Below are positions 3,548 through 36,132 of a stretch of DNA of 64,000 nt, piece by piece. Positions within the stretch are counted from its first letter, which is position 1, and the number at the start of each line of letters is the position of its first letter. This DNA is from Dacryopinax spathularia (Eukaryota > Basidiomycota > Dacrymycetes > Dacrymycetales > Dacrymycetaceae). The position numbers and the translations under genes are program-made. The notes under the pieces are model-generated. The model saw only the letters and a program-made list of their open reading frames with translations, ran no database searches and had not been told where the DNA came from. The DNA lies in assembly GCA_037974965.1 (NCBI GenBank), contig JBBPFI010000002.1, positions 1,798,001 to 1,862,000 on the forward strand, written 5' to 3'.

Positions 3548-3690
3548 CATCAGTAAAACCCTCCCTGCTACGCATAGTGGGTACCCCGAAAACGCGCTAT
3601 CCGGTGTCCATAGTGGCTGTTCACTTATAGGGTCCACCTGCTTTCTATGTAGTGGGTACCGCCGCTATGGTTCCACTATGAGCGCCCCAT
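3548..3690 (+). repeat. Left terminal inverted repeat (3548-3564) and subterminal repeats
   Basis: The 17-mer CATCAGTAAAACCCTCC is the inverse partner of 36116-36132 with two mismatches. Behind it are several short copies built on ATAGTGGGTACC, CATAGTGGCTG, TATGTAGTGGGTACC and CACTATGAGCGCC. The last resembles CTATGAGTGCT on the inverted right end. The pattern fits CACTA-type ends; the exact tip is uncertain. Confidence 0.5.
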
Positions 3691-4443
3691 TTGACGTCCT
3701 GAAAGCGCAGACGAGGCTCTAAACCTAACTTGAATAGTGCGCTGACAGCGTATCTCCTCTCGCAGGTGGATTCGAGCCAAATTTGCTAGGAATGTGGCTT
3801 CCCCGTACTGTCGTTAGCCCAATGGCCGGTTCGACCGGACTGCAGTAATCCGAAAGTCATGATGCTCGGAGGCAAATTGGGTCAGCGCGTCCACCTAAGA
3901 CCGTTTGTTGCGTGTCTGAGAAGTTTCGTTTCTCAGGAGATGCGGTTGGTCAGTTATGACACCTAGGCCTGGCCTTTGATTCAACTCAACGCGAGTGTAC
4001 ACCTATGGCTCTACAGATCCCAACCTCGCTACCTATGTGGAATGGCCGACATCTTGCTCGTCTGCCGAAACTTGCTGCAGATTCCGACGTTAGTCACGGC
4101 CGACGATATGAGTTTGCCAGTAAGGAACGCGTTGATATGCCCAGAAATAGGCTACTAACATCTTGACAGGCGGCTCACGTGTGCGACGACGTGCGGTAGG
4201 TCAATGCACCATAGAACGTACTATTCATCATCCTGATGGTGCGCTTCGGGTCCTAGAAGCAGAGCGGTCAGGAGCCCACGAAGGAGCTAGCCGATGAGTC
4301 TGTCAACGTATTGTACCTCGTCCCAGTTGGAGTAACCACGGCGACCGCTCAAGGTGCATCGAACAATGGTTCTGGTCAAATATCTGTGAGGCGCGGGAGT
4401 CGGGAAGAGATCGGAATTGAGCCCGGTCGTGTAAGCCGAAGTC

Positions 4444-5883
4444 GTGTGCGTAAACAGCCTACGTCGATGTTCCTCGCGCCTGACATCAGCCCAGCCCCGA
4501 AAACGAAATGTTGCGCCAACGTCCAACTATCCGGTCGAGCAAACCAAGCGCCGGCGTGTTGCAATCAGTGCCATTGAGCTGCCTGAGCGCAGCGCCCACG
4601 ATGAGATGGTTACAGTCACGCCTATCCTGGCAGACGCAGTCACTGAGCGATCCCTGGGCGTTGGGACACTTCCCGTACACGAAGAAAAACACGGCCCCTG
4701 GATGATCTGGCCTCCTCCTTCCAGAGACTTCAAGGGTAGGAACCTTGCAAGCTATGAACCCCCGATGCGCCGTGTGTTGCAGATCGCCAAACGACTGATG
4801 CGGACCTATTTCTTCACGGAAAACCTTTTCCCTTCTCCTCTAGAGATGGACGAGATTATGGAGCGAGTCAGGATTACCGCCAACGAAGAAGCTCGTCAGA
4901 AAGACCCGGAAGCACCCCAGATAGATTTCCACATATACCCAGGGCAAAAGGCACTCGTAAGCTGCTGTAGTGAGTTGCCATGTGTGCAGGACTGACAGGC
5001 ATAGCTCGAGCGAGTCCGCCCCTCAGCTCGCGGAATCCTCAAGACGAAGGCTCAACACGTCATACTGTCTGAATATCAAGATGCGGTGAAACTCGCGGAC
5101 GAGACTTCCAGATTGGCATCGGCCTACTCAGAAGAGAAGAGGAAAAAGCGCAAGGAAGAACTGGGGGAGCAGCTCCGCTTTTCCACCGAGTCCTCGAAGG
5201 CAGCTTTCTCCAACCTACGCGAAAACGTTCATTTCATATATCGTGGTTTCGATTGCCGCCAGGTCCGTGTCTGACAGGAGCTTCTCGTGCGGGCACTTAC
5301 AATGATCCTGCAGCCCAGCCCGCCCCTCTCTGCCGAGGATGCTTTTTGTCATTCTGGCGTCATTGAACTCTGCGCAAGATTGGTGGCTTATACGCTGGCG
5401 GAAAGCTCGACCAACGCTGAGCCAATTCCGGAAATATTTCTGTCCATACCCCCGCGACTAATCGCTGCCGCAGTGACTGGGGTACGCACGCATCTCTCCT
5501 GAAACGCTTTGAGTTAACACGTATGCAGCTCTATCATGGCTTCTCGTGCTATGAATCTGGTACACTTGTCAATCTGCATTTCAAAGAGGACGACCCGGAG
5601 AATACAGAGACTTATCGGGACATTTGTGGCTGGCTCGAGCATTATGAGGCGTCAGCGCCGATAAATTACGCTCAGATGAGGACGTTCGTGACCAACGAAT
5701 ACCTGTATGCACCTTTGACATCCCCTTCATGCGTCTGGCTTTGACCCTGCTTTTAACAGATCCAGACTTCGACGTCTCGTCCCGCGCTTAGACCAGCCAG
5801 CGCCCGTGCTATGTACGAATCCGCCTGCAGCTCGAACTCCTCCCAGAAGAAAATTCCATCTCAATCTCACAGATGTTGCTTAA
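4444..5883 (+). CDS. DUF6532-like basidiomycete protein, gene 1
   Basis: Function unknown. Exons are joined by three or four short introns: KAL spliced to LERVRPSARGILK near 4956, RQ to PSPPLSAEDAF near 5270 (51-nt intron), one near 5481-5527, and a final exon ending LNLTDVA at 5883. The part from FCHSGVIELCARLV through IPPRLIAAAVTG and LYHGF...TYRDICGWLEHYE to MRTFVTNEYL matches the DUF6532 layout as I know it: an F-HP-I helix, a block ending in IPP-L-A-TA, then a substituent-variable C-terminal helix. A KRRR stretch near 4575 may be a nuclear signal, and a Lys/Glu-rich coiled segment lies at about 5130-5170. The true start is unclear: no in-frame ATG precedes the ATG at 4605 in this exon, so an upstream exon is possible. 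Confidence 0.55.
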
Positions 5884-6663
5884 AGTACTGCCTCTCCGCA
5901 GAAAATACGCATATACCCGTCTCTCACGCTTATGTAGAACATCATCTACACGCTTATCTGTTGTCCTGCTTAATAGCCCGCTGTGCTGCATGGTTCATGT
6001 CTCGAAGTCCGTTACTTAGGTACACAATACCCACTGCTGTATGAATATATACGGAAGGACATCTGGAATTGGATCCTGTATAGCGGAAAGACGTGTACAA
6101 TGATATCCAGTGGGACCGTGGTCAGTTGCTCAACCCGATATGCCTCGATGGAGTCGATGCAGACGCAAGACCGCCACAGCTACTTCTGCTTTCTCACAGC
6201 ACAAACTGTCCAGAGGCTGCCAGTATCTGAATTCCCGTTATGGGGTCGCAGAACCTCTTTCACCGATCGGAATGCTTCAGGGAGAGGTTTACCATAGAGA
6301 TAGTATCTGCTCAAACCATGTCCGAATAGGGTGCTGTACAGTTGTAAATCAGCGCAGATGCGGAGGTATTCGTCGAGACTGCCCGAGACCGTGCAAGACG
6401 CGGATTTTTCTCATTCCCCTGCAAACTGGTTCTTGAGAGTTCAACGAGCATCTCATCTTCTTACTCTTTGTCCCACACGAGCTTGAGGAGGGGGATCTTT
6501 GAGGAAGCCTGTAAGAATGGTCAGAACCTATCGTTATGAGACTCAAGCGGACTTCTGCCAGTACCCAGATGAAAGCCTTCCGATATCTCGCTGCAACGCG
6601 CTCCAAAGTAGGCCCGCCCACCGACTACAGCAGAGCACGAGCACCTGTCCAGCCTATCCAGTT
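5884..6663. other. Interval between DUF6532-type genes; no gene supported
   Basis: Only short frames with no recognisable domain are present. I see no repeat structure or RNA gene here. Confidence 0.4.
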
Positions 6664-7568
6664 ATGGCGCCCCGCCTAGGCATGCCAAGAAAGCGCGCTC
6701 TCCGGGGTACGTATCACCATCGTAAGCTATCGGACGGAGAGGGCGATTCGAGCGAGGACGACGGATGTATGAGTGGTCCATTTTTGTTGATGCAGAGGCT
6801 GACAGATATATAGTAGGACCGAAGGATGCAAGGCCGCCAGTCCATGCCTCAAGAGAGACTGCCCGGAGCTTGGAGAGTAGCCCAGGCATGTAGTACTTGC
6901 CCTCTTTATGCTCAAGTAGTCTGACAATTGGAACAGCAACCCTCCTTTTTGGGCCAGGCGACACGTCAGACAGCAATGAGAGCATCCCCGGATGGGACAG
7001 CCCTGATTCGAGTTCCGGCACTGAGCAGGATAACCTTGGGTCGCCTATCGTACATTCCCGCAGCGTTGCCAGTTCTATGCGCGAGAAGACGAAGCAAGGT
7101 CGTACGGTCCATTGGCAAGATGAAGAACGGCTAAGCAGATCACAGCATAAGACGTCCAACAGTGCAGCAGAGCCGAGCCGAGGTAGAAGCTGCTCTAAAG
7201 CCCGCACCCAAAAGTGCACGGCTGTACGGCGAACGGAAGAGATTGCGTTGTCCGGAGAAGAATCATTGACGGATAGGGACAACCTGCCCACTGTGTCTCA
7301 GGGTCTCGCCCAGCATCACGACAGAGCTGAACAACGTCATGGAAAGAGCAAGCATACGGCTGAAGGCGAGTATATGTGGCACATGCTTGATAGACATGAG
7401 ACTGATGGACTCCAGCGGCCCAGCCGGCACGTAGAGAGACAATGCAAGGAGGTCCAGCTTCGAGGTCGACAGCCGGGGGAAGGGCGACCAGGGACGAATT
7501 TCGCGATATTCAGGTGCGCCCCTGCATCCTACTTCGCACCTGTGCTATGCAGGCTGACGCCTGGATAG
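6664..7568 (+). CDS. Possible exons of an unrecognised Ser/Arg/Glu-rich protein
   Basis: A short start exon MAPRLGMPRKRALR (6664) is followed by a GTACGT donor. A longer open stretch at 6897-7568 encodes a hydrophilic, Ser/Arg/Glu-rich chain with SDSNESIPGWDSPDSSSGTE and many basic residues. No family is recognised. It lies immediately upstream of the second DUF6532-type gene, but I could not splice it in frame to that gene's ATG at 7575 because an in-frame TAG precedes it. It may be a separate low-complexity gene, a 5' exon of an alternative transcript, or chance. Confidence 0.25.
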
Positions 7569-7574
7569 TTCCAC

Positions 7575-10407
7575 ATGAGCACGCCTCAGGTTGTTAAACC
7601 GCGCTCGAGCACGAAGCGGAGTGCACCTCACGCCCCAGCCGTCCATCGCCGAGGAGAGACCGCCATCTCGCGCCGAGCAAATCCCAAAGGTTCCGGAGAC
7701 CATTATCGAATGGCAGACCTGTCCCCGAACTCGAGGTCGCTTTCCTCGATGGCGAACAAGAACTTCCGTGCCATGGTAGCCAACTCTAATGCGTTTCCCG
7801 ATAAGGTAACCTCCACGCAGTGGGCCCGACAGGCCATGAAGAAAGCTTGCGTGGATTTGGGCGTGGAAGGGGCTTACTATCAACGACGGTTCAAAGCCGA
7901 TATGGGATATAGTAACCAGATGAGCGACATTGTAAGTACCTAAGTACGAGCCATACCGCTCCACTGATGCTTGAACAGATAACGCAGCGAACAGCTCAAC
8001 TGCGTGGAGAGGTCAAGACTGTAGCAGCTGACAATCTCCTACAGTTCTACAAGTTACCACTTGCTCGAGGGCCTGAGGCTATCGCATCAGCAGTACAAGA
8101 CTGGCTTACTGACGCCCTATTTGTATACGCCGATTACTGGGTACGATTCTCATTCTGGCGTTAACTGGTCTTGACTCGGGTCAGAATGACCTCCCGCAGA
8201 AGATCTTTGAGCATCCTATGATCCAAGCTGTGTATACCGCTAGCTTCTTTAAGGATCGCCGTAAGGACGGTGTGAAGTTCAAGGAACTGTACAGCAAGGG
8301 TCGTCCGGCCCTGCTTGCGCTTATTCTTACTGCTGTGAGCGCCGATGAGCTGCTGGAAGCAGGGGAGTCTGACACTTTCCAGATACATTGCGCCTTTGAC
8401 CAGTGGTCTACGGGCGAGAAAGTAAGTGGCGTCAGCCACAAGTTCAGCGCTGAGACCTGGGAGCCTGTCTATCAAGATCATTTGGAGAGCATCCAGGACT
8501 TTGCAGAGGCGTTCCCCGACAAATACGACTCAATCATGCGCAAGCTGTTCAAAACCGCAATGTAAGTCGGCAGGCTCGTAAAAGGTATTGCTGCCTTGGT
8601 AACGTACTGGCTGTCATCCAGGACTGCGAGTGGATCAAAGAAGATGAAGGACCGTCCACGCCAGCCATACACCGGCGCGCTCATCAAAAGATTGCGAGAG
8701 CGACAGTCGGCTCCCAAGGAGGACAGCATCTCCGCTGTCAATGACGAACAAAGTTCCAAAAGCTCCTCCGATGATTTCGACCCTGATAAGTCCAACTTGG
8801 GCGATAACGTTATGGCACATGCGGATCTGTCACCTATCAATCGGTATCGAAGTACCGAGCCTTTATGTGACAAAGATGTCTCGACTCGGTCTCCCGCGAC
8901 ACGTTCAAGCTGCATACGCCCAGAGCTACACGTTGACGCATTCGCGCAAGAACCGTTCGCGGATGAGTCCCTTGCAGCAGGCGAAGACGGCTGGGGTGCT
9001 GCGGTCAATGACAGCTGGGGTCCGCCGATATTCTCTCGCACCGAATCACCGCCTTCGACTCCCGCAGTTCCTGCTCGAGTGCAGACATCGCCGCACAGCT
9101 TGCAGAGTGGCGTGGAGAGCATTTCGCTCTCGCGTGCCGGGTTCTTCGGAGCCAATCATCTGAATCTTTGGAGTCTCAGCACTCCGGCAAATGACTCTTC
9201 AAGGGACATGCCTGCCGGTGTGGAACCATGTATCTCATCGACACCTCAAGTTCTGGAAGCCGACGGTAAACGTAAATCTTGTGTGTCTGGGCATGTAGAC
9301 GATGGTACGGTCCTTCAACTTTGGACAAGTATGGTGCTGATAGTCCATGGTCTAGTCCAAGCGGAACGGCGAAGCCCCTCGATCGCGGCTATTGCCGAGG
9401 TCGCTAATAAGTCGACATACCGAGTTGACCCAGCTGTGGCGGGATCAAGTGACTCTCATATCCCTTCCTTACCCAGGCCTTCCCAATGCGCTTTGCGCCC
9501 CAAAGCTACCGGCAGATCCGACAACGCTATTCGTAAGATTGACTTTGAAGGCACCACTGCGCCTGACGGCACGATTGTCCGCAGCTGCGAGCCCATCCGC
9601 CCGGAATCGCCCAAGAAGAAGAATGTTCCCCGCCCCCGGCGTTTGGCACCTCTTCGTCAGACTGTTCCTGAGCCAGCTTCTTTGCCCTTACCCAACGATG
9701 CCGCAACTACCGGAACAAGGATGCAGCCGAATAGCGTTGCGCCATTCCGCGATTTACCACCCATTGGTTTCTCCACTCCGGCGGCAAACTTCGCGCGGCC
9801 AACCAGCGACTTTCCACCCAGCGATCATAGCCAGCCTGATGTGCTGGTGCTTACAGGCGAAGTGCGGTCATCCACTGTAGTGCCACCGACGGAACAACTG
9901 GTGGACCTACCTCATCAGATGGCAGATCTACAAGCGCAGAAAGGTCAACAACAGATCATCGACTCAGTCCTCTACCCCTTCGCTGGTGCACAACAGGAAG
10001 CGCATTCAACACCAGAATATAGCCCCGGCATGCGAAGTGGCGAGCTACCAGACCAGCAAGCGTCTGACGATCGCGAATATCTTCATGTGGGGAATGCCTG
10101 TCCCACTCTGAGTTCGCCCAGAAGTCCTATTGTCAATGACACTATGCAGTCCCCGGACTTCGCTGAAGCAGTTGTCGGCCGCCCTGAAGATCAAGCGAGC
10201 GATGATACGGGCAAGGCCGTCGCCTCTCCGAGAATCAGCACAACGGATCCGGTTGCCGAAGGAGCTACTGCTGACGGCGGAAACGCTCCTGTTGTGCACG
10301 AACTTCCTGGCAAGCGGACGAGAAGAAAACCCGACCGCCTCGATCCAGAGATACCTGCTTCTGCCCGTAGAAAGCGCGCCCCAAAGCCGCAAAGGATGAA
10401 GATTTAA
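7575..10407 (+). CDS. DUF6532 domain protein, gene 2, with long disordered C-terminus
   Basis: The start is the ATG at 7575 (MSTPQVVKPRSS). Four introns of 45-60 nt join five exons: GNQMSDI to ITQRTAQLR, DYW to NDLPQKIF, ALILTA to IHCAFDQW (47 nt) and KTAM to TASGSKK. The protein is about 875 residues. The DUF6532-like region lies near residues 100-320: IFEHPMIQAVYTASFF, GRPALLALILTA, the AFDQWSTGEK turn, FSAETWEPVYQDHLESI and YDSIMRKLFK. It is followed by roughly 600 residues of Pro/Ser/Asp/Glu-rich, probably disordered chain ending in the basic SARRKRAPKPQRMKI, a likely nuclear signal. The stop is only 35 bp from the left edge of the 4-kb inverted repeat. The function of the family is unknown. 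Confidence 0.7.
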
Positions 10408-10555
10408 TGCTTGTTTCTGTTCCCTTCAAATCAATCGACGTTCCTTGGCTTAATCAATGGGCTGAAACTGCTCCATAATGCACGTTCTTGTGAATGCCTT
10501 CCTCGTCGGCTCACCACCTCTGTATATGTCCCATGAAGACCTCCAGAGCGACGAA

Positions 10556-11085
10556 AAAGCGGGAGGGAGAGGAGAGCGGGAGGGAGAGAAAGCGGGGGGG
10601 GGGGAGAAAGCGGGAGGGGAGAAAGCGGGAGGGAGAGGAAAGCGGGAGGGAGAAGAAAGTGGGAGGGAGAAGAAAGCGGGAGGGAGAGGAAAGCGGGAGG
10701 GAGAAGAAAGCGGGAGGGAGAGGAAAGCGGGAGGGAGAGAAAGGGGGAGGGAGAGGAAAGGGGGAGGGAGAGAAAGGGGGAGGGAGAAGAAAGCGGGAGG
10801 GAGAGGAAAGCGGGAGGGAGAAGAAAGCGGGAGGGAGAGGAAAGCGGGAGGGAGAGAAAGGGGGAGGGAGAGGAAAGCGGGAGGGAGAGAAAGTGGGAGG
10901 GAGAGACAGCGGGAGGGAGAGAAAGTGGGAGGGAGAGACAGCGGGAGGGAGAGAAAGTGGGAGGGAGAGACAGCGGGAGGGAGAGAAAGTGGGAGGGAGA
11001 GACAGCGGGAGGGAGAGGAAAGCGGGAGGGAGAGGAGAGGGGGGGGAAGAGGAAAGCGGCGGAGAGGAAAGCGGAGGAGAGAATG
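10556..11085 (+). repeat. G-rich minisatellite, unit GGGAGGGAGAG(G)AAAGC
   Basis: About 30 imperfect copies of a 15-17 nt unit built on GCGGGAGGGAGAGAAA, with periodic variants (AAAGTGGGAGGGAGAGACA). The plus strand is almost pure purine, with runs of three to nine G, so it could form G-quadruplex or triplex DNA. Long frames through it encode Gly/Arg/Glu/Lys repeats in any phase and are a by-product of the repeat. The right-arm copy (28520-28930) is about 120 bp shorter. Confidence 0.95.
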
Positions 11086-11676
11086 TCCGGACTACAGTGC
11101 TAGGTTCATATCGCAGCGTAATGCTTGCTCCCTATAGTTGAATAATCCTGCTTGTTCTGTCAACAATGACGACGCATCCTTCATCTGCGAGAGCGAGCTT
11201 GCAAGGAGCACGAAGCAGAGCATAGTGATACGAAAAAAGCATAGCAGTTCGGTGAGGTGCAGCGGTCATGTCTAACAATGTCACATTTTATGTTCAGGGT
11301 ACGTATCCCCCAATCTGCTAGACTACTGTACAACAGCGTACGATGCGATGAGGATCGGAAAGCGTATCGTGATCTTAGCGTCCTGCGGCGTTTTGTAACA
11401 GCGTGTCTACTTTACTGCGACGGTGGTGGATGAGAAGAGAAACGGAAATTGTTATCGTAATCGTGGCGGTCGTGGGCGATCTAATGATTTGAATCATAGC
11501 GGTCGTAATTGTGGTTGTAGAGCGGGAGAATCTTGCGAGTCGTACTGCCAGGTGCAGCATAAGAGTGTAGTGTCCATAATATACAGGTCAGGTAGTAGCG
11601 ATAGAGCAGAACTTGCTGGACGTCCGGCTGTGTGGGGTTTGCATGCGTCCCATCACAGGATAGGCTCTTGTTTGTC

Positions 11677-13688
11677 TTAGAGAGAGTCGAAGAGAGAACG
11701 GAACTACAGGTCGTCGTCAGGTCAGCCGAAACCAGAGTAGAGACCGACTCACGACATTGGGTCCTTGGTGCTGAGTAGGCCCGTACTCCTCAGACTCGTC
11801 AGCATCCACGTTGTTATTGTTGGCGGCATCACCGGTCGAATGATAGGAACCACTAAGGTATACGGGGTTGATAGTCTGCCACCACTTAGCTAGGAGTCCT
11901 CAGATCTAATAGGTCCTGCTCACCGGCTCCTGGTATGTGCCAACTGCACGGGTTGGAATGGGCGTGATATCCGCGTCAGCCTCGTCCTTCATCGCTCCAG
12001 AGGCATTGTACGGCGTAAACATCAGGAAGGGGCTAAGAGAGATACGGTCGTCCACACTGCCGCGATGATCATCAGCTTCTCCAGAAGTATGGTACGTGGG
12101 CGCCGTGGATGAGGAAGGTCCGGGTGGCGCGGCATCGTCCAAATCGATGTCTGACTCGGCAAGGATCGCAGCCGTGTCGAGGCGGCTCATGATGTCTGCC
12201 GCTTCCCCCTCGTTCACCTCACCCCCGTAAACGCGCAGAGAGCTGCGCTCTTCTCGAGCCTGAAGAGCCTTGATCCGGTGTGCTGCGGCCGGGGAGGGAC
12301 TGTGCGGACGGTTCTCTTTATCTTCGATACGGCGCCTTTTATGCGAAGTTGGCGTCGTAGGCGTTGTCGGCGTCCTGTTGCGGCGCAGAGACCCGTGGGT
12401 GGGAGAAGCGATAGCATTTAGTTGCTCCTGCACCGTAGCCATGGCCACAGCGGTCGCCGCAGCCGTAGCATGCGGTCCCCAAGGCAACCCGTCGCTGGTT
12501 GCCAAGAAGTACTCGACATACCAGTCTTGAACCGCGTCCTTGGGGGGAAACGAATCAGATATCGTCATCACCAGCGGACTCGGCGCGGATGTGTATGTCC
12601 ATCTGATGTTCCTATCCATTTTGGCAACGAGCGCGAGAGCAGCCTTGAATGACATGAGCCAGAGGATCATTTCGTTAAGCCTGAATCGCTTACGGCAAAG
12701 TACCTGTTGTTGACGTTGAAGGAGAAGGGTTCCGGGGTGGGACTAGACTCGATCAGGTCCGCTTTAAAGAAGCTCAGCTCCGTGTAAAGCTTTCCGCGCC
12801 CTGTGATGTGTATGTCAGCAATGGTTCCAGACCTAGGAGTGGGGACCAACCAGCAACGGCTTCTACTTTAACGAGGTCTTCCTCGAAGGTTATAATCACA
12901 AAGCCATCCGCCTTCGATGTGAAAGCATGCAGCACCTTGTTGATGGACTTGCATGCCATAGGGCTGAGAACGAGGTGAGGAAGCAGCCCGAAATCTTCAT
13001 CCATCCTGGGTTGATTAGGCGCGTCCGGCACGTCGATGAGTTCAAAGCGGTACGTGTACGAAACACCTAGCAGAACATAGCATATATGCGTCAGTTGACA
13101 CGATGCGGCTCGAAGTAAAGCTCAGGCTCACCGTGAGGCAGGGAGAACCTGACGAAAAATGCACTCTCCACACCATGCTCGTGTTCCATCCAGTCGGGAT
13201 ACTCGTCCTCGTCTTCTTCCATATCTTCGGATGGTTTATAGATGAGAATGGTGGCAGAGATTAGGCCAGCCGCTTTGAAGGGGAGCGCGTTGAAGCGCGT
13301 TTCGAGCAGCTTGATGTACAGGAACGATGAATCCTGGTCCCCTTCGGCCAGAGATACAGGGGAGGGCTGGTAGAGAATATTCGGCGAGAGACCAGGCGTA
13401 TGATACTTCATAAAGAATGACCGATGAAGGACAGCTTTTGCATGAGCAGAACGGGCCATACACCATGTCCGAAGGTGTAGCTATATGCACATCAGAAACT
13501 GTAAACGTGAACGGCCTTGCAGGCAGCGCACCTCGTCAGGCATAGTGATAATCTCCATCTCATCGCCGTACTTGCTCAAGCTCCGCAGGATCTCATACAG
13601 GTCTAATACTCAGCTGCAGATCCCGACCCCAGAAAGGAGACTAACCTCTAGCAGCGCTGGGGCTTACGGTAGCATTCAGTACGATCAT
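11677..13688 (-). CDS. rad9: Rad9-like checkpoint clamp protein (9-1-1 complex), left copy
   Basis: Rad9 is a PCNA-fold subunit of the Rad9-Hus1-Rad1 clamp that loads at damaged DNA and signals the checkpoint. Translation starts at ATG 13688 (MIVLNATVSPSAARD), with about seven introns of mostly 43-70 nt, and the chain is about 550 residues. Family marks in order: LRSLSKYGDEMEIITMPDE and RSFFMKY (first PCNA-like half), FELIDVP, LVLSPMACKSINKVL, FEEDLVKVEA and GRGKLYTELSFF (second half), VEYFLATSDG, a basic SHKRRRIEDKENR stretch, and the C-terminal tail EEYGPTQ followed by FRSLFDSL, typical of Rad9 tails. A 23-nt intron must be assumed after SFNVNN. The gene is divergent from the PIF1 helicase with about 250 bp between start codons. 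An identical second copy lies in the right arm. Confidence 0.8.
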
Positions 13689-13941
13689 GGCAGCTGATAA
13701 GCGGTGATTAAAGTAGAGGCGATGGCTGAAAGTGTGTTGTTGTCAGAGGAGAGAATGGGTATGTTTGGAAGTACAGTGAGGAGAATAATACAGAGCGGAT
13801 AAGTGGTCGTACAGGCGGAAGTTCTAGCAGGGCGAGAATGTGTCCCGCACGCCCAGGTTGAACGCCCTGACGTCGACTCTGCTGATCCCTACTGCATGTC
13901 TCCTGCTGTCTGCAACGTTCACCTCGACGCACCACCTTGCT
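13689..13941. promoter_or_regulatory. Shared divergent promoter of the Rad9-like and PIF1 genes (left)
   Basis: The 253 bp between the two start codons carries no other gene. Its inverse (25661-25913) serves the right-arm copies and appears unchanged. Co-expression of clamp and helicase is an inference from the layout. A helicase start further upstream would shrink this region. Confidence 0.45.
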
Positions 13942-24734: not shown

Positions 24735-25059
24735 GCTTCCCCGTCTAGTGCCCTTCTCAGTAGCGGGTCGTTGCCATAGTGTGCGAGTTGTGTATCCGCA
24801 GATAGGACGATAAGGATTCGAATCCGCTTTCTGCCCATAGCGACAACCCAGGGGAACGGTCCTGGAACTATGGATTGTCCAGAGGCACGAGGACACAGGC
24901 CGCGGCGGCTACCCTGTAGCCTGATGCGACGCACTGAAACCGCGACGATCATTGTCAACATTTAAAGACCGGATCTATACAACGTAGCTCTTGTTAAAGG
25001 ATTTTGGGACTGGCTCCGCAAGGTAGCGGTACGCCGTCCAGTCAGTACTATACTGGCGA
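24735..25059. other. Spacer between loop gene C and the right arm; no gene
   Basis: No coding signal. The boundary with the right arm at 25060 is abrupt. Sequence on the helicase side of the breakpoint has no similarity to the helicase continuation found on the left. Confidence 0.5.
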
Positions 25060-25660
25060 TCAAGCAGCGCTCCAGTGCCTTCGGAGAGCTACGAATAGCC
25101 GCCGCCATATCCGCCGCTGATCCCTCTCCTAGCCCGATACCGGCCCACGAGTGGAGAGTAGTACCCCCAATGTGAGAAGCAGCAAGTCTGGTCGTTGCGC
25201 AGACTCCGATTGCGCTGCGAGGGTGGATCTCTTCTAGCGCTTTGATGATGGCAAGTAGCGCAACTGTCTTTCCGGTGCCTGCAAGAGTAATCAATAACCC
25301 AGTATCCCTTCGAATAGTAGGCAGCACACCTGCTGCTCCACTGAAGAAGAAACTGCGCCCCTCCCTTGCGCGGCCGACTAAGTATTTCTGCTCATACCCC
25401 AGACAGATGCTTTCATCGTTTATTGTCTGGTCTGGCGAATGGAAGTCAACCTGCAAGAGCGGGGTATCCGGTTCCCCCCTAGGAGGAGCCTCGTCCAGGG
25501 CAGATCCAGGCGTCCAGGTTACTGCTGGGGTCGGGTTGAGAGGTGCGTACGAATGACGTGCCACACGAGACATCATGCGTCTCATGAATTCCACCCGGCA
25601 GTCCGCCTGAGTTTTGAGATGCTTCTCGCGCTTTTGCAGCGGTATTCCGTAGTAGTTCAT
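25060..25660 (-). pseudogene. PIF1-family helicase, 3'-truncated right copy
   Basis: An inverted copy of the first 600 bp of the left helicase gene, carrying the start codon, Walker A (AAGTGKT across the intron) and motif Ia (ATTRLAASHIGG, with Arg in place of Gly). It stops where the inverted repeat ends, just after ALERCL. Motifs II-VI are missing, so no helicase activity is expected. It differs from the left copy by Leu for Pro before the intron end and by the Gly to Arg change. The truncation is exactly the duplication boundary. Confidence 0.85.
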
Positions 25661-25913
25661 AGCAAGGTGGTGCGTCGAGGTGAACGTTGCAGACAGCAGG
25701 AGACATGCAGTAGGGATCAGCAGAGTCGACGTCAGGGCGTTCAACCTGGGCGTGCGGGACACATTCTCGCCCTGCTAGAACTTCCGCCTGTACGACCACT
25801 TATCCGCTCTGTATTATTCTCCTCACTGTACTTCCAAACATACCCATTCTCTCCTCTGACAACAACACACTTTCAGCCATCGCCTCTACTTTAATCACCG
25901 CTTATCAGCTGCC

Positions 25914-27925
25914 ATGATCGTACTGAATGCTACCGTAAGCCCCAGCGCTGCTAGAGGTTAGTCTCCTTTCTGGGGTCGGGATCTGCAGCTGAGTATTAGA
26001 CCTGTATGAGATCCTGCGGAGCTTGAGCAAGTACGGCGATGAGATGGAGATTATCACTATGCCTGACGAGGTGCGCTGCCTGCAAGGCCGTTCACGTTTA
26101 CAGTTTCTGATGTGCATATAGCTACACCTTCGGACATGGTGTATGGCCCGTTCTGCTCATGCAAAAGCTGTCCTTCATCGGTCATTCTTTATGAAGTATC
26201 ATACGCCTGGTCTCTCGCCGAATATTCTCTACCAGCCCTCCCCTGTATCTCTGGCCGAAGGGGACCAGGATTCATCGTTCCTGTACATCAAGCTGCTCGA
26301 AACGCGCTTCAACGCGCTCCCCTTCAAAGCGGCTGGCCTAATCTCTGCCACCATTCTCATCTATAAACCATCCGAAGATATGGAAGAAGACGAGGACGAG
26401 TATCCCGACTGGATGGAACACGAGCATGGTGTGGAGAGTGCATTTTTCGTCAGGTTCTCCCTGCCTCACGGTGAGCCTGAGCTTTACTTCGAGCCGCATC
26501 GTGTCAACTGACGCATATATGCTATGTTCTGCTAGGTGTTTCGTACACGTACCGCTTTGAACTCATCGACGTGCCGGACGCGCCTAATCAACCCAGGATG
26601 GATGAAGATTTCGGGCTGCTTCCTCACCTCGTTCTCAGCCCTATGGCATGCAAGTCCATCAACAAGGTGCTGCATGCTTTCACATCGAAGGCGGATGGCT
26701 TTGTGATTATAACCTTCGAGGAAGACCTCGTTAAAGTAGAAGCCGTTGCTGGTTGGTCCCCACTCCTAGGTCTGGAACCATTGCTGACATACACATCACA
26801 GGGCGCGGAAAGCTTTACACGGAGCTGAGCTTCTTTAAAGCGGACCTGATCGAGTCTAGTCCCACCCCGGAACCCTTCTCCTTCAACGTCAACAACAGGT
26901 ACTTTGCCGTAAGCGATTCAGGCTTAACGAAATGATCCTCTGGCTCATGTCATTCAAGGCTGCTCTCGCGCTCGTTGCCAAAATGGATAGGAACATCAGA
27001 TGGACATACACATCCGCGCCGAGTCCGCTGGTGATGACGATATCTGATTCGTTTCCCCCCAAGGACGCGGTTCAAGACTGGTATGTCGAGTACTTCTTGG
27101 CAACCAGCGACGGGTTGCCTTGGGGACCGCATGCTACGGCTGCGGCGACCGCTGTGGCCATGGCTACGGTGCAGGAGCAACTAAATGCTATCGCTTCTCC
27201 CACCCACGGGTCTCTGCGCCGCAACAGGACGCCGACAACGCCTACGACGCCAACTTCGCATAAAAGGCGCCGTATCGAAGATAAAGAGAACCGTCCGCAC
27301 AGTCCCTCCCCGGCCGCAGCACACCGGATCAAGGCTCTTCAGGCTCGAGAAGAGCGCAGCTCTCTGCGCGTTTACGGGGGTGAGGTGAACGAGGGGGAAG
27401 CGGCAGACATCATGAGCCGCCTCGACACGGCTGCGATCCTTGCCGAGTCAGACATCGATTTGGACGATGCCGCGCCACCCGGACCTTCCTCATCCACGGC
27501 GCCCACGTACCATACTTCTGGAGAAGCTGATGATCATCGCGGCAGTGTGGACGACCGTATCTCTCTTAGCCCCTTCCTGATGTTTACGCCGTACAATGCC
27601 TCTGGAGCGATGAAGGACGAGGCTGACGCGGATATCACGCCCATTCCAACCCGTGCAGTTGGCACATACCAGGAGCCGGTGAGCAGGACCTATTAGATCT
27701 GAGGACTCCTAGCTAAGTGGTGGCAGACTATCAACCCCGTATACCTTAGTGGTTCCTATCATTCGACCGGTGATGCCGCCAACAATAACAACGTGGATGC
27801 TGACGAGTCTGAGGAGTACGGGCCTACTCAGCACCAAGGACCCAATGTCGTGAGTCGGTCTCTACTCTGGTTTCGGCTGACCTGACGACGACCTGTAGTT
27901 CCGTTCTCTCTTCGACTCTCTCTAA
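25914..27925 (+). CDS. rad9: Rad9-like checkpoint clamp protein (9-1-1 complex), right copy
   Basis: A complete second copy of the Rad9-like gene in opposite orientation, with the same start (MIVLNATVSPSAARD), PCNA-like halves, nuclear-type basic stretch and FRSLFDSL tail. I found no protein difference from the left copy. Its divergent partner here is only a truncated helicase. The exon plan is easiest to read on this strand: introns near 25955-25998, 26071-26121, 26471-26535, about 26746-26800, 26899-26921 (23 nt), one after YQEP near 27680, and one near 27850-27898. The splice into the acidic tail EEYGPTQ was not resolved exactly: the obvious donor after YQEP leads into a short alternative ending. 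A host Rad9 gene presumably exists elsewhere. Confidence 0.78.
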
Positions 27926-28519
27926 GACAAACAAGAGCCTATCCTGTGATGGGACGCATGCAAACCCCACACAGCCGGACGTCCAGCAAGTTCTGCTCTA
28001 TCGCTACTACCTGACCTGTATATTATGGACACTACACTCTTATGCTGCACCTGGCAGTACGACTCGCAAGATTCTCCCGCTCTACAACCACAATTACGAC
28101 CGCTATGATTCAAATCATTAGATCGCCCACGACCGCCACGATTACGATAACAATTTCCGTTTCTCTTCTCATCCACCACCGTCGCAGTAAAGTAGACACG
28201 CTGTTACAAAACGCCGCAGGACGCTAAGATCACGATACGCTTTCCGATCCTCATCGCATCGTACGCTGTTGTACAGTAGTCTAGCAGATTGGGGGATACG
28301 TACCCTGAACATAAAATGTGACATTGTTAGACATGACCGCTGCACCTCACCGAACTGCTATGCTTTTTTCGTATCACTATGCTCTGCTTCGTGCTCCTTG
28401 CAAGCTCGCTCTCGCGGATGAAGGATGCGTCGTCATTGTTGACAGAACAAGCAGGATTATTCAACTATAGGGAGCAAGCATTACGCTGCGATATGAACCT
28501 AGCACTGTAGTCCGGACAT

Positions 28520-28930
28520 TCTCTCCTCCGCTTTCCTCTCCGCCGCTTTCCTCTTCCCCCCCCTCTCCTCTCCCTCCCGCTTTCCTCTCCCTCCCGCTGT
28601 CTCTCCCTCCCACTTTCTCTCCCTCCCGCTGTCTCTCCCTCCCACTTTCTCTCCCTCCCGCTGTCTCTCCCTCCCACTTTCTCTCCCTCCCGCTGTCTCT
28701 CCCTCCCACTTTCTCTCCCTCCCGCTTTCCTCTCCCTCCCCCTTTCTCTCCCTCCCGCTTTCCTCTCCCTCCCGCTTTCTTCTCCCTCCCGCTTTCCTCT
28801 CCCTCCCGCTTTCTTCTCCCTCCCCCTTTCTCTCCCTCCCGCTTTCCTCTCCCTCCCCCTTTCTCTCCCTCCCGCTTTCCTCTCCCTCCCGCTTTCTCTC
28901 CCTCCCGCTCTCCTCTCCCTCCCGCTTTTT
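28520..28930 (-). repeat. G-rich minisatellite, right copy
   Basis: Inverted counterpart of 10556-11085, with fewer repeat units; the G-rich strand is the minus strand here. The length difference between otherwise near-identical arms shows that the array changes faster than the surrounding DNA. Confidence 0.95.
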
Positions 28931-29045
28931 CGTCGCTCTGGAGGTCTTCATGGGACATATACAGAGGTGGTGAGCCGACGAGGAAGGCATTCACAAGAAC
29001 GTGCATTATGGAGCAGTTTCAGCCCATTGATTAAGCCAAGGAGCG

Positions 29046-29303
29046 TTCTGTGAGAATCTATGAGGATTTTTACGAGCTGTGTGACTAGGAAGAACGCTCT
29101 TCAACGATGCACGACATTGGATGGATGGGATGAATGGGGGACACGTTAGGGCGATAAGTTTACGACAGGCCGCATCGATGCTAGGATCTTGCGCATGCGA
29201 CATCCGATTCTGAAACGCCTGTCAGTCCTATGCTGTTCCATTTGGCCATTGGCATGCACCCTCCATCCAGCCTCTAGCCACGCACCTTTTATCCCAACCA
29301 TTG
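29046..29303 (-). repeat. Older dispersed repeat X, right copy (decayed)
   Basis: Reverse-complement match to 16533-16792, starting 4 bp outside the right arm. The open frame seen on the left is interrupted several times here, so this copy is a relic of the small hypothetical gene. Confidence 0.85.
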
Positions 29304-29741: not shown

Positions 29742-32700
29742 TTATACTTTGGTAGAAAACAAGAACATGTCAAGATCCAGGTACTTGTTTAAGAAGAAGT
29801 ACCGGCATTCATCCAATATTTCCTCTCCTGCCAAGTCTACACTGTCAATTTCGGCCGCTTGTAACATGCAAGTGCGGCGGATGGCGCTGAGGGGTAGTAT
29901 ACTTGCCAGGCAACCACCGCGTCCCGTGAGTTGTCGGCAATAGAGCGGAAAGCCAGAGGGGTGAGAGACAGTAGCATCTACGCCGTACCATTCAACATAT
30001 ACAAGTGGTTCTTCCCAGCCTTGGTACAGGGCGGAGCAACCCAGTGGGGTGGTGAGTTTGAAGATTAGCCGCACTCGCGCCACACCGAAGTCGTCAACAC
30101 CTATGACGTCGTCAAGGGTGAAAATGCAGGATCACTCATGGCACTCACTTAACGATCCAGACTGTCCGTCAGTAAGCACCGTATCGAAGCGAGCCGCGTG
30201 ATCCTTGACTAAGCGCGATTCCGCTTTACTGCGAGAAACCGATGCGTGAACGGTGGAGGCATGCTTTCGAGCCCCCGTCACTGTCTCGACCGTTGCCTGA
30301 GCCCACACCGATATGGGTCCTATCAAGTGAGGGGCGATGTTTGCGGCTGTGGCAGGAGGAGAGTGTCCGCGATCTCTAGCACGTCTGAGAGCATACTGTC
30401 TCAAAGCAGAAAAGAAGTCCAGGCATGCCCAGCCCTGTGGGTCCACGATGTTCTCCAGGGATACTCGCTGATAAGTGGGATTTTTAGCTAGACGATAACT
30501 GGTCATTGGCGTAACATAATCCTGCTGTGTGTTCTGCCCGGTGGTTGACTGAGGCGGTTCTAAGGGGAATTTAGTATTCCCGTTGAAGGAGAAGAGGTTT
30601 CTTCCGCTCACCGCCTCTTCGCCAATGGACCAGCGCTCGGAATCCTTGCAGGGTCTCGTGTCGGCACACCCACAATGCCATTTCCTGGGTTGCCGTATCT
30701 TTCCGTCGACTGCTGCTCCGAAAAGGACGCTTGGTAAGATCGATGTGGAGACGTTCGCTGAGCTCGGTAGTTCGCCCATCTAGTGATCCACCCTCCACAA
30801 TGTGCCAGACATAATGGACCAGCGAATGTAACTTCGGTATACAGAACGGATTCTCTGCGGAGAGTTATAGTGACCATTGGCGAGTTTTGTGTACGACTCA
30901 CGATTACCATCCTCCGACAGGCCTTTGTCGCTTCGAATTCCCAAGTTCGTGAGTCCATGCTTGTTTTTGTGGAAAGCCAGCAGCGCCTTCCGCAGTAAAG
31001 GAAGTGTGCGGTCTGAGTGTACAGGCAGACATGCAGCGTAATAGAAGTCCACAAGGGCGCAGACAACCTTCATTACGTGCGCCCCGTCGTCGCCCTTGTT
31101 CCGTAACGTGACAGATCCGCATACGGCACCTGGGAGGACACGGATGAGGTTTTTAACCTCACCCCCAGTGAGGCGAGGGTAGTCAGGGAAGCCTCCACTG
31201 TACGTTTGTGCACCATGTGTAGGCGGGACGGCCCTGAAACAACGATCGATGTCCCTCTTTCCTATTACCGTCTTCACCCATGACATGAGGTGCTTGACAA
31301 CCCCCTCTAGCAGTTGATGCAGAGGATCAGGCCATATGGAAGAATGGATTTCGGCATGCGGAAGGTCTGCAAACAGAGGCTCAGGGACGGCAGCAAGAGA
31401 GAGAGCTCGGGTGACGGCGTTATACGAACGCAGCGCCCCAGTGAGGGTGTGTGTGGCTGGATTTGCGACGAGTTGTACAGGAGGACGTTCAGGATGACCA
31501 TTTGTAGGCAGGAGGACCGAGTCATTCTGCAACGATGGTTCGGCGACCAGAGTAGTATCGACGATGTCATCGTTTGACGCGGTCACCACGTGCCCTCTCA
31601 AGATGTCGACAGTAACTTGCTGCTTCCGGGGCTTGCAGTCAACGGTGCAGCGATTGACGTAGACATCTTCTTTGCCCGTGAGCTCCATACCCATTTCCTT
31701 CCAAGCAATATCTCCGATGGGACAGCGGCGATGTCGAGTGCATGTAACTAGGCATTGTTCCGGATAATCGCCTGAGAAGCCGGCCAAAACGGGATAACAG
31801 CGCCTCGTTAGACCGTCTCCGGATACCAGGTCGATCCCTTTGGAGCCTGCAAGCTTCGTACCCTCCAGCAGTCTTCCCATACAGAAATGGAAGAGGCGTT
31901 GCCGTGCCACTTTAGCGCCTTCCTCGCTGAGACCCAAGTTATCGAAGGTGTCGGTGGGCAAATACCCTACAACAACGGTTGCCCCCATCGAAATGGTCTT
32001 ACGAATTGCTATCGGAAGGTTCCCGATCGTCATATAAACCGGATAACCTTGCCGATTTCCGGAAAATTGCGTAACTTGGGTCTTGTCCGTTGCCAGAATA
32101 TAAGGTACGAGCGTTGCACCGGCAGGAAGCTGACCCTGTCAGGCCGATCATGATCAGTATGTAGTTTTGCCTCACAGACCTCTCGAGACCAACCTGTACC
32201 CGGTGCCACCAGTTTCCCATCCAAAGCTCCAAGTAGAGCCTTACGTTTTCGTCGGCGTTGGCGAAATGCATCTCGGGAACGAAGTGCAGTTGATTGGCAA
32301 ACCGAGGGTCACCCCAGAGCATACGTATGGCGTCCATAATGCTCCTGTACCAGAAGATTGAGACGTGGTGCGTATTTTGCAGCGGGATCTCAGCTTGGTG
32401 CCAATACAAGCGGGGGACTGGAAGCTCGTTGTCAATTTTCTGATTCAGCTGATCCATAGTTCTGAACGAGAGTCCCAGCATGTCAACCACCTGCGCGCCT
32501 TGAGCGATTTGATAACTCAGCAGCATGCTCATGACTCACATCAGAGGTAAGAAATCGGTCTGCAGCAGCCTTACTGATGGACTCAGCCTTCAGCCATTGA
32601 GCCACATGGAAGTCGACCGAGGACTCGAATGGATGCCAGATGTTACCATTGGGGACTGCGCGGGCCTGACCCCTTGGATCCGACTGGCGGTCTCGAGCGA

Positions 32701-33092
32701 GCGGTACTCCAGCCGGTATGGCGTACTGCCGAATGTGATGGGGCTTGCCATACACTTCCTGCAGGTATCCGCTGGGATATCGGTGTTGGGGGGGAGAATT
32801 GTGTTCTCGGAAAGTTGGTGTATCCGAATCGTCGACAGAGTCGACAGGTACTGGGGAGTGACGGTAGGCGTCCATGATGTTCAAGACGCTTGATCCGTCA
32901 ACCAAGATTGTATCCTCAACTGCGTTCTGGCCTCCTGCAGCAAAAATATTCGTGTCCGCAATCACGGTGAGGTCGTCTGAGCATAGTTTCCCGGTATCGC
33001 ACGAAACAAGGTGTAGATCTCCATTGGGTTGCATGCTGCATCAAAGAAGCCCAGCTCGAGAACGCGCGATCGCAGCCAACGCAGGTGGGCAT
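29742..33092 (-). CDS. Plavaka transposase (CACTA/EnSpm superfamily DNA transposon)
   Basis: A multi-exon gene for a Plavaka-type DDE transposase of about 1000 residues. In order from ATG 33092: an N-terminal zinc finger MPTCVGCDRAFSSWASLMQH (C-x2-C-x12-H); NIWHPFESSVDFHVAQWLKA; LSFRTMDQLNQKIDNELP; FWYRSIMDAIRMLWGDPRF with MHFANADENVRLYLELWMGNWW; then TDKTQVTQFSGNRQGYPVYM and MTIGNLP, VVVGYLPT, LVSGDGLTRRCYPVLAGFSG and SGDYPEQCLVTC; HSSIWPDPLHQLLEGVVKHL; TELSERLHIDLTKRPFRSSS; and the C-terminal VARVRLIFKL, YVEWYG, GGCLASILPLSAIRRTCML. This is the complete Plavaka motif series. Frames change at about six points with plausible splice signals, so it may be intact. It lies next to the right end, as expected for the mobilising gene of the element. 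Confidence 0.85.
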
Positions 33093-36000
33093 GGCAGAGA
33101 GGCTCCTCGCAGGAGGACGATCATGATCAACATGATACTTATCATCGCCAATACTGACTTGCATCCAGGATCACCGCATTCAGGGTCCGCTGCCCTTCTG
33201 AGTCTCAACGTTCATTATCCTCGCAAACGCATATCATCGTATACCTCTGTCGTCTCCAATCCAGAGGATAGAGATCCCTCGCCGGTAGGTCCCCCAACCT
33301 GTCCTCCTGACTTCAAACGTCCTCCCGTCGGGACAGCCCAGATCAAGCGACGTTCTTCATGCAGTGACATACATTCGTATACCTTATTGCGCCGGGTCAT
33401 CCTTTGTCAATGGACGCTGGAGGAGTGAGGGATGCGTAACGATCTCACTATTAGCCAGCTAGAACGCGAGTTCCAACCGCTCGAGGAAGGAGTCCTTCGC
33501 CTGGAGATGGGGAATACATGCAATCGAGGCTTTCCTAGTACGTCCTGCCTTCCCTCCTCTAAGCCGCGTGTCAAAAGATCTTACGTGAGAGAACATGAAG
33601 ACCATACTCGATCTATGTACTCTGCGCAAGCGCTCGGGACAGTCCAATAAGCGTCCCGGCTGTCTCCCCGGATCATAGGGAAGGCAAATCCTCCAAGCGT
33701 CTGAGCGATCTACTCCCTCGGGTGGGACAAGCTGGGCTGACCGATATCTCTCCCCCTTTTGCTACTGAGACAGTACTGTATTCGCTCGTTATTGTGGATA
33801 GGAAGACATGTGATTACCCTGCTTCATTCGGAATTGACCGTACAAGGGGCTGATCATTGAGTTAATCGGAATACGGGCTTGTGAGTTCCATATTCGCTCC
33901 ACCACCTTTGTCCGTCGCTGACTAGGCCTCTAGCATACGTAGAAGTTGACGCGTCCCCTTTCTCTTCCCTGTCCCAGCCACAACAGCCCGCGTGCTACGT
34001 GCAACCTCAATCCCAGAAAAGGACAAGCGTTTCTTCCCAAGCTCCTCCGACAGCATGTTCTCCGACCTTCGCCGTCGTCGGCCCAGCTCGCGAAGAGGCT
34101 GAACGACAACTACGAGGCGTGGGGCACACAGGATGGACCAGCTGAAGGCAGGTTGGGCTGATCTGTCCTAAATACTGGGCTGTCGGAGCGGCTTGTGCCG
34201 CTAACGCCAACGGATATGTTAACCAGTCGCTGGAGGTTCAACAGACCATGTTCAATCTAGAATTTGTTTATGTGTCCTAATTCGGCGTCGCAGTCTCGAT
34301 TGCTGCCTACGACCTGAACGCCCCAAACCCCACCATAGAAGACCTCATCAACGGGCAAGCACCTCTGCACGCCAACCTCCGTCTCTTCTTTATTGCGCCC
34401 AAGTTCCCACTCCAGTGCCTGAGGAAACATCTCAGGCTGTTGGTGGACAATATTTCCTAGCAGTATCCGGCTCTCATTGCATGAAGGTACTCGGGCTACG
34501 CACCTCTCTCGATCAGGCCCACCCCGTGCCCAACGAGAAGCCCGCGCCAGAGCAGCACAGATGGGAGGAAACGTCGTCGCCCTGGCAAGCAGAAGGAAGA
34601 CATACCCATAATCCCTCGTGTCTGTTCCATAATGCGCAGGATATGGCTCGAGGAGATCGTGAGGGTGTGCCGGGGAGTCGTTTGAGGGGGCGGGCAAGGG
34701 AACGCCGATGTGAGTCTTTGCACTCGTTCTACCGAAAAGCTGACACCGCCTGCGCTTGTACTATGGAAACGTCACACGATGGCGACAACGGTCGTGTTCT
34801 TTATTGGGTACGTATATCGAAATAGCCGCTCTGAGTCATGTGCGCCGAACGCGGGCATGTCTGATTTTTCTTGAATACGCTTTGCCGCCAATCACTTCGA
34901 CCGTACACAGTTGCTCTTTCCTTGTGGACACCATTTCCCCACATCCATAGGTGCCTATTCACTTAGCATGATACCGTTTTCAGGATGTACAACTGGTATC
35001 ATTGATCTATTCATACAAACGTCTCGCAACCCTCTATTACCTACTGCATGTAAGCGCGCCTCGTTGTCCTTTTACCAGCTCACTCAGCGTCTTTTCGAGA
35101 TTTGGCCGAACTTTCCGAGCTGTGTGGCTGAGCCTGGAGGTACGGGTTACTGCCTTCGATCGACAGCTCGGCTGGTTCACTTGTCTCTCACGCATATCAG
35201 CGAAGCACGTAGTTCAAGGAGGGAAAGGACGCGTAGCCTGCATCTCCCTCAACGGCTCTATCAGCCTCTGAAACGTCCACCTCTTCTTGACAGGCATATC
35301 GACAGTTTCTTCCGCACGAACAGGACACTCGAGTCCCGCCATGTATCGTGCTCAAACATGGACGCTGGAACCCTGGCCGCGCCAATCAGCACAGAATGGT
35401 TGCTCAGATGCGGCGCACAGCTCGTAACAACCCTGGTCTTGAACGCCTGGTACGACGGCTCGGGCGATCGCAATCGTGCTTGCGATCGCGGGGATTATCT
35501 TCTCGACGACGCCTTGCGCGAGAGACCAGGTAACACCTCCAATCTTGAACTCCGCCGCGCCGGAGGAAGCCTTCGGCGAGTGTGATCAATGGATATAGTC
35601 TAGGGCGTCCATGTTGAGTTTCGTATCTACGAACGAGGTCATTATATGCCGCATACTCCCTGGTACGCGGAACATCACGAGCTCGATCACCTAGGGTGTA
35701 ACGACGTCTTTGAGGGTACTTGGTGAGGAAATCTGACTTATCTGGCTGAAGGGCTGGGCGCACCGAAAGATACGGATCTCTCGCTGGTACTAGTAGTACC
35801 CTCAGGCTCCATGATCGCACTGGCAGTCCCCCCAAGTTAATCCGCTGCCCCACCAGCCTTCCACTTCATTCAGGGCGTCCGACCAGGCCGCCCTGCTTCC
35901 TGGGCAGACGTCTTTTCACACCGTGCAGAATAAGGACGGGCCCTCTGCAATTGAAAAGCCCTATTTCGGGTCATAGCACTCATAGAAAACCGGGGTCTAT

Positions 36001-36115
36001 GTAGCCTAGCGCGCGCGTGTATAGGTCCGCTGGTCCCTATGTCCAGCTATCCAGTGCGGGACGATGCAATGGATGCTATGGCTTCTACATAGCCACCATA
36101 GGGCTATAAAGCCAC
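33093..36115. other. Three-kb stretch upstream of the transposase; no gene supported
   Basis: Many short frames exist on both strands, but none shows a recognisable domain or a consistent exon series. A stretch at 34290-34450 (plus) reads AYDLNAPNPTIEDLINGQAP and looks protein-like; it may be a relic. A perfect 10-bp-arm palindrome built on GCGATCGCAA lies at about 35464-35489. From about 35960 the sequence takes on the CTATG-rich character of the element end. Confidence 0.4.
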
Positions 36116-36132
36116 GGAGGTATTTACTGATG
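35960..36132 (-). repeat. Right terminal inverted repeat (36116-36132) and subterminal repeats
   Basis: The inverse of 36116-36132 reads CATCAGTAAATACCTCC, 15 of 17 identical to the left tip. Inward, on the same strand, are TATAGCCCTATGGTGGC, TATGTAG, CATAGC, CTATGAGTGCTATG and similar words that echo the left end. Confidence 0.5.

Follow-up and report, generated by a model that had tools for sequence, protein, structure and literature searches.

The window analyzed here is a 64-kb stretch of the Dacryopinax spathularia genome (C2:1798001-1862000 of an assembly of 29,246,034 bases in 24 contigs), a species described as an edible, wood-decaying jelly fungus of the Dacrymycetes. Public reads of it are listed in PMC11066560 (SRR24631918, SRR27412332, and SRR27412333), and the heterozygosity of its genome is estimated at 5.09%. 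It contains a gene-rich segment of 32,585 bp at positions 3548-36132, the putative giant PlavakaB element of this report; positions without a contig are those of the window. The left terminal inverted repeat, CATCAGTAAAACCCTCC (3548-3564, plus strand), and the right one, CATCAGTAAATACCTCC (36116-36132, minus strand, written as the reverse complement), are alike at 15 of 17 positions, and 36116 is the sole place in the window that matches the inverted left 17-mer at 15 positions or more. Both copies of a 2-bp target duplication, TG, were read directly outside the ends (3546-3547 and 36133-36134). CTATG/CATAG words were counted five times in the left subterminal region (3548-3797) and seven times in the right one (35883-36132), compared to at most three in each inner 250-bp window (n = 637). 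An exact-pattern search gave no inner pair of ends, either in this element or in its copy on contig C10, and no RNA family reached the gathering threshold in 3400-36300.

The gene models, built with simple splice-aware scripts and not from RNA (one over-fitted model set was dropped), lie in the order G1 (+), G2 (+), Rad9-like (-), PIF1 (+), G5 (+), G6 (-), G7 (+), truncated PIF1 (-), Rad9-like (+), and transposase (-). The DUF6532-type gene G1 (4042-6469, extent approximate) matches PF20149 at 25.8 bits on its 5' part and is similar up to 6399 to a relative of the element on contig C12, in which the DUF6532 gene G2 (6664-10407; PF20149 at 78.6 bits in the frame 8113-8562) is conserved, too. 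An exon model of G1 continues into G2, and the two may be one gene. The left Rad9-like clamp gene (11677-13558; a model of 522 amino acids [aa]) matches PF04139 at a sub-threshold 20.7 bits, and the right copy (26044-27925) was modeled within an arm of an internal inverted repeat. The PIF1-like helicase gene (13755-15958) matches PF05970 at 90.4 bits on a 566-aa model that ends at 15695 and was extended by homology; a truncated 5' copy of it (24962-25847) lies at the inner edge of the right arm. G5 (17207-18537, conserved in the C12 element), G6 (18825-20874, conserved), and G7 (21346-24919, conserved, with a model of about 1,038 aa) had no Pfam hit. For G7, no match was obtained among 8000 protein-database candidates scored. 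Among solved structures there was none for the Rad9-like protein (E value up to 1) or for G7 residues 1-596 (E value up to 10), and those for G6 reached an E value of 0.12 or worse; predicted structures were of no use, with a mean predicted local distance difference test score of 42 for a G7 exon and 34 for the main G6 exon. The models at 33.1-35.6 kb are weak and have little in common with the C12 element.

The transposase gene (29748-33092, with an exon model that runs on to 29146) matches PF18759 at 286 bits against a cut-off of 26.3, and its N-terminus shows a C2H2-like motif of 15.2 bits, below the cut-off. Residues D289, C404, C410, H693, H697, and E717 are retained in columns conserved to at least 90% in a 32-row alignment, in agreement with the PlavakaB pattern of catalytic acidic residues with a Cys pair and a His pair ahead of the last Glu. 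Among 7998 protein-database candidates scored, 37 were transposase relatives, all with PF18759, and the best two came from Calocera viscosa. A second, distant Plavaka transposase gene lies just beyond the right end of the window (C2:1864729-1865765) and has a match of near-equal score at C9:1037561-1038597.

In the available text of PMC12730594, PlavakaB is given termini CATCA..TGATG and target duplications of 2-3 bp. CATCA..TGATG was read at both ends of the window element and of its C10 copy, and the duplication in the window is TG/TG, 2 bp; to judge from the sequence, ends, duplication, and transposase fit the published PlavakaB. The same source describes EnSpm by CAC..GTG termini and a 3-bp duplication; CATCA termini and a 2-bp duplication were found here instead, which sets the element apart from CACTA/EnSpm proper. 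A Pfam scan of open frames and gene models, which together fall short of the full element, gave no hit to the tyrosine recombinase (DUF3435) of the Starship captains or to the PolB, retroviral-type integrase, packaging ATPase, and protease of Maverick/Polinton. Helitrons leave no target duplication. The PIF1 model here has no Rep domain, so that a Helitron origin of PIF1 is unsupported, and a 2-bp duplication is present; the hallmark of Helitrons is a Rep-Hel protein (PMC6431247, in the part available). A viral origin was considered and rejected, as no transposase relative was confirmed in viral contigs and the one PHROGs match was at chance level (E value 0.03).

A first-pass annotation, made from the letters of the window alone, had listed the inverted 17-mers at 3548 and 36132, the CTATG-type words on both sides, and a Plavaka motif series near the right end, and all were recovered, the last as the PF18759 match at 29.7-33.1 kb on the minus strand. 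It had named a missing 3-bp duplication as a weak point, which is resolved by the 2-bp TG. Among the carried genes it proposed, PIF1, DUF6532, and three genes without a Pfam match (G5, G6, and G7) held, and the Rad9-like genes are present with a weak score. The 4-kb inverted repeats inside the element were not part of it.

The first 153 bp and the last 123 bp of the element were each found once more in the genome, at 100%, and both lie on C10. The C10 match consists of two overlapping aligned pieces of 99.6% and 99.2%, with outer edges at exactly 3548 and 36132, and corresponds to a second copy of 32,855 bp at C10:1129871-1162725, while the flanks of the two copies have no match of at least 250 bp in common. 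Comparison of the copies over 32,551 aligned bases gave 83 substitutions (0.255%; 66 transitions and 17 transversions) and nine indels, eight of them in two tandem arrays and the ninth, of 2 bp, at 32984. The C10 copy is 270 bp longer, of which a net 268 bp come from 16-17-bp tandem arrays. In eight gene models compared, there was no new stop, and the frames are open in both copies. An assembly artifact was rejected, given the different flanks, the 83 substitutions, and the lack of any N. These two copies, referred to as family A, were the only ones of their kind found in the assembly.

The internal inverted repeat has its left arm at 10438-14542, beginning with a 16-17-bp tandem array, and its right arm at 25060-29046. 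The tandem array aside, 3,443 bp of the arms were compared: those within a copy differ by three bases on C2 and by none on C10, and the arms of the two copies differ from each other by eight to nine bases. Seven of the 10 variable columns separate the C2 from the C10 copy, and none separates the arms, a pattern that points to conversion between the arms, although assembly polishing could have produced it, too.

Giant Plavaka elements were also found on four further contigs. The end pattern CATCRGTAAAW matched the genome 49 times, compared to 14 for its reversed control, and led to the C11 element and to the left ends of the C1/C9 pair. Family C comprises the divergent relative at C12:987440-1033318 (45,879 bp; flanks AT/AT; left end CATCG) and the element at C11:85131-130871 (45,741 bp; flanks AA/AA; CATCG at both ends). 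The third family is formed by C1:1517302-1548756 (31,455 bp; flanks TA/TA) and C9:1220731-1252166 (31,436 bp; flanks TT/TT), both with the right end CCTGAG; their right boundaries were placed with help of the duplication and are weaker than those of the other four elements. The three families thus fall at 32.6-32.9, 45.7-45.9, and 31.4-31.5 kb, a Plavaka transposase lies inside all six elements, and a 2-bp duplication accompanies each of the six with both ends read (TG on C2, GC on C10, AT on C12, AA on C11, TA on C1, and TT on C9). Subterminal word enrichment was seen in the C12 element as well, with six and seven words compared to at most two inside (n = 903 windows). This unit contains one extra inner CATCGGTAAAA at C12:997094, with no inverted partner close by. 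The end words CATCAGTAAAT and CATCAGTAAAA occur in like orientation with a spacing of 2,069 bp at C11:1060187/1062256, C1:1517302/1519371, and C9:1220731/1222800, the C11 pair with no Plavaka transposase match nearby.

Further candidates at C2:680347, C6:341063, and C15:769714 had one end read each and were left out of the count. The first of these (left flank TA) is likely another giant Plavaka element with PIF1 at 689523, G7 at 692531, and Plavaka at 713650; its right end was not found up to C2:718700. The six giant elements sum to 219,951 bp, or 0.75% of 29.2 Mb. The published annotation of the D. spathularia genome gives 34,030 bp of DNA transposons and 131,188 bp unclassified (PMC11066560), which even combined is less than these six elements. 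We infer that giant units escape repeat pipelines through their few copies and their genes resembling host genes.

One of the six insertions gave a site with both flanks side by side in the joined-flank search. The joined C12 flanks match C12:1036443-1036620, with 78% across the junction; in the extended alignment, 551 of 726 columns agree, the insertion point is ungapped, with a gap of 9 bases starting 7 bases further right, and the joined flanks have AT at the 2-bp site, where the paralog has AG. By this alignment, the locus is a related (paralogous) empty site for the C12 element.

In the C12 element, tblastx and blastp gave the order G1, G2, then an inverted block of G7, G6, G5, PIF1, and Rad9-like, then the transposase. 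Its extra genes include an APH-family phosphotransferase, an M20 peptidase, and a Rad17-type clamp loader, which combines a P-loop domain (PF03215 at 64.1 bits) with similarity to solved Rad17/Rad24 structures (human RAD17 chain 7z6h_B at 5.1e-24). In the C11 element, transposase, PIF1, G6, and G7 are placed and oriented as in C12. Between family A and C12, divergence in eight genes was 0.61-0.73 at third, 0.29-0.50 at first, and 0.19-0.41 at second codon positions, figures taken from tblastx segments chosen for protein similarity and covering only 26 codons of Rad9 and 55 of G5; on these segments the divergence is of the coding type. The Rad9-like proteins of the two match by blastp over 52 residues (E value 1.5e-4), and with so few codons and residues the identity of the C12 gene leans on its position, too. 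Most genes are common, in order, to this diverged family, and to judge by that they are long-term parts of the element and not chance cargo. The middle block of the window element is flanked by the 4-kb inverted repeats and runs opposite to its C12 counterpart. A flip of the middle between the arms would yield the C12 gene order plus one extra Rad9/PIF1 fragment, as far as the sequence indicates; C2 and C10 have the block one way, and C12 and C11 (by the positions of PIF1, G6, G7, and transposase) the other.

On this evidence, it is almost certain that the window holds one mobile unit, 3548-36132, a PlavakaB-type DDE transposon that encodes its own transposase and moves whole. Its status as a mobile unit with exact ends follows from the C10 copy, the 2-bp duplication, the paralogous empty site of the sister element, and the gene set common to the sister family; the confidence covers the unit and its kind and does not extend to the repair role. 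Several points weigh against it. The inverted ends are short and vary between the elements (CCTGAG instead of TGATG on the right of C1/C9, CATCG at both ends on C11), no transposition event was observed in the sequence of a single strain, and the joined-flank search found no empty site for the other five of the six insertions, that of the window included. The Rad9-like score in the window is below the Pfam cut-off of 25, and the Rad9-like protein of C12 had no Pfam hit and no match among 7079 protein-database candidates scored. Coding changes between the C2 and C10 copies were 19 synonymous and 32 non-synonymous (both Rad9 copies counted), hence there is no sign of selection at that time scale. 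The 2-bp insertion of C10 at 32984 hits the first exon of the transposase model, and either one transposase copy may be frameshifted or the first-exon model may be wrong. The proposed repair role is much less certain.

The first-pass proposal of a large cargo-bearing DNA transposon in a basidiomycete is therefore borne out by the C10 copy with the same edges and the 2-bp duplication, and the search for further copies with the same ends led to that copy. Closer-set ends around the transposase were absent by exact pattern in C2 and C10, with the one unpartnered inner word in C12. Its view that everything between the ends is cargo says too little, as most of the genes are shared in order with the diverged family; the empty-site check gave no site for the insertion in the window and a paralogous one for the C12 relative.

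The distribution of the Rad9-PIF1-G5-G6-G7 block was analyzed across the genome by matches to its genes, whose counts are lower bounds: at least 29 for G7, at least 52 for PIF1, at least 17 for Rad9 (seven over the cut-off), and at least 17 for Rad17 (five over the cut-off). Linkage within 30 kb was evaluated for 29 of 29 G7 rows, 42 of 52 PIF1 rows, 17 of 17 Rad9 rows plus the C12 model, the five Rad17 rows over the cut-off, and one row each for 22 Plavaka and 29 KDZ loci. The PIF1 rows set aside were seven low-scoring ones (28.3 bits or less) in frames of at least 860 aa, assumed to be probably Helitron, two inverted-repeat copies, and one extra exon; the strong row C4:512054 (1,347-aa frame) was kept. 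PIF1 was clustered with G7 at 27 of 29 G7 loci, and 15 of 17 Rad9 rows and four of five Rad17 rows were clustered with PIF1, G7, or both, the Rad9 ones including six of the seven over the PF04139 cut-off. G6, found at 15 loci (20 rows), is at every one of them on the strand opposite G7 and placed between G7 and the nearest full PIF1 (inside the 30-kb linkage at 13 of the 15), and PIF1 is on the strand of G7 at 12. Only seven of the 27 PIF1/G7 clusters include a Plavaka transposase and 20 do not; judged from this distribution, the block predates the window element and reaches beyond it. The 29 KDZ loci all lie outside the listed clusters (four weak KDZ loci, more than 100 kb from any module, were omitted), which gives no indication of KDZ as the mover of the other loci. 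Pairs of PIF1/G7/Rad9 module loci with near-equal spacing and scores and no Plavaka transposase in the cluster were observed at C4:990057-1012613 and C17:256624-279346, C5:148335-156405 and C5:196946-205019, and C8:319927-338841 and C1:2509866-2528701; such paired loci may represent another type of mobile or duplicated unit.

It is possible, although we consider it unlikely, that the block is a separate mobile or replicating unit that was picked up by Plavaka and is moved elsewhere by others or by an enzyme of its own. The 27 clusters with only seven Plavaka transposases, the paired loci such as those on C4 and C17, and the empty KDZ count all speak for it, but in the window element neither ends nor a target duplication were seen at the borders of the block, all four elements of families A and C whose two ends were read contain PIF1, G6, and G7 (a Rad9-like gene was seen in three of the four), and the DUF6532 genes outside the block are common to family A and C12 as well. 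Far less probable is that host genes were trapped by accident and are decaying: the PIF1 copy on the right is cut short, Rad9 and Rad17 belong to protein families of the host type, and of the 51 coding changes between the recent copies, 32 change the protein, but the frames are open in both copies, the divergence from C12 is of the coding type, and the position of G6 is conserved at 15 of 15 loci. DDE transposons are generally able to mobilize DNA through paired ends. Ends of two small Plavaka elements could have paired by chance and mobilized host genes between them, and the inner end-like words at C12:997094 and 2,069 bp inside the C1 and C9 units point in this direction; this is very improbable, as three families of different length have such ends, the block genes and their order are common to the diverged families A and C, and the C2 unit has no inner end pair by exact pattern. 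Segmental duplication, to which the mere two copies of family A would be congenial, was rejected as having next to no chance, for the similarity ends precisely where the terminal repeats do on either side, the flanks are different, the 2-bp duplications are specific to each site, and the C12 relative has its paralogous empty site.

For the PlavakaB unit as a whole, the CMC/CACTA class suggests that the transposase would bind the CTATG/CATAG subterminal words and the CATCAGTAAA ends, cut the whole unit out, and paste it in with a 2-bp stagger. The Rad9-type clamp, PIF1, the Rad17-type clamp loader of C12, and G5-G7 might allow the element to persist in spite of its size: from the sister chromatid, they would promote gap repair over long tracts, or break-induced synthesis, across the 30-46 kb excision gap, whereby cut-and-paste would become copy gain. 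Inversion of the middle block would be made possible by the internal inverted repeats. PIF1 is needed in long break-induced synthesis. That clamp, helicase, and clamp loader with G5-G7 aid long gap repair after excision is a tentative proposal. More doubtful still is the wider scenario, in which the lineage took up a replication-repair module (9-1-1-type clamp, Rad17-type loader, PIF1, and three conserved orphans) that spread across the genome with its gene order fixed, was shuffled between transposons, and enabled 30-46 kb elements to repair or copy themselves, possibly as a formerly independent replicon and fungal counterpart of Teratorn.

Compared to known systems, for which the sources are quoted in the parts available, the PlavakaB of PMC12730594 shares the Plavaka transposase, the CATCA..TGATG ends, and the 2-bp target duplication, but the extra gene named there is TET/JBP, and the window element has about nine genes over 32.6 kb with clamp and PIF1 (the clamp loader is on C12). 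The enlarged En/Spm (CACTA) families of Chondrus crispus, cited in PMC6431247 with 16-20 kb and four to five open reading frames (ORFs), resemble it by description in a related transposase superfamily, excess size, and extra ORFs, but are smaller and belong to a red alga. Teratorn, a fusion of piggyBac and herpesvirus, is likewise a DDE transposon of giant size that carries replication genes, has long inverted repeats inside, and differs between subtypes by a large inversion (PMC6431247), but it has another transposase superfamily, and no viral polymerase, capsid, or terminase was among the Pfam hits here. Maverick/Polinton elements are giant, with many genes and a DNA-replication theme (PMC6431247), but use another integrase, and PolB, protease, and packaging ATPase were missing from the Pfam hits. 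Starships, known from Pezizomycotina and reported from Tremella as well, are giant fungal transposons with many genes, but are moved by a tyrosine-recombinase captain (PMC13066641) and not by a Plavaka transposase. In the literature searched, with most subscription journals outside it, there was no giant Plavaka and no transposon with Rad9, Rad17, and PIF1, and the conserved DNA-repair-like gene set is unusual for this transposon type. DNA transposition drops markedly beyond 6 kb of cargo according to the available text of a review (PMC6431247); nonetheless, Plavaka units of 31-46 kb occur at least six times in this genome. A transposon with clamp, clamp loader, and PIF1 would make the escape of cut-and-paste elements from their size limit testable, and basidiomycete DDE elements would join the Starships as carriers of gene blocks.

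Elsewhere in the window, outside the element, a gene for the DNA primase small subunit (44669-45847; PF01896 at 102 bits) probably belongs to the host. A 115-bp inverted repeat at 61514-61628 and 61902-62016, with arms 98% alike and 273 bp apart, lacks an ORF of 60 aa and resembles a small inverted-repeat element of the non-coding kind.

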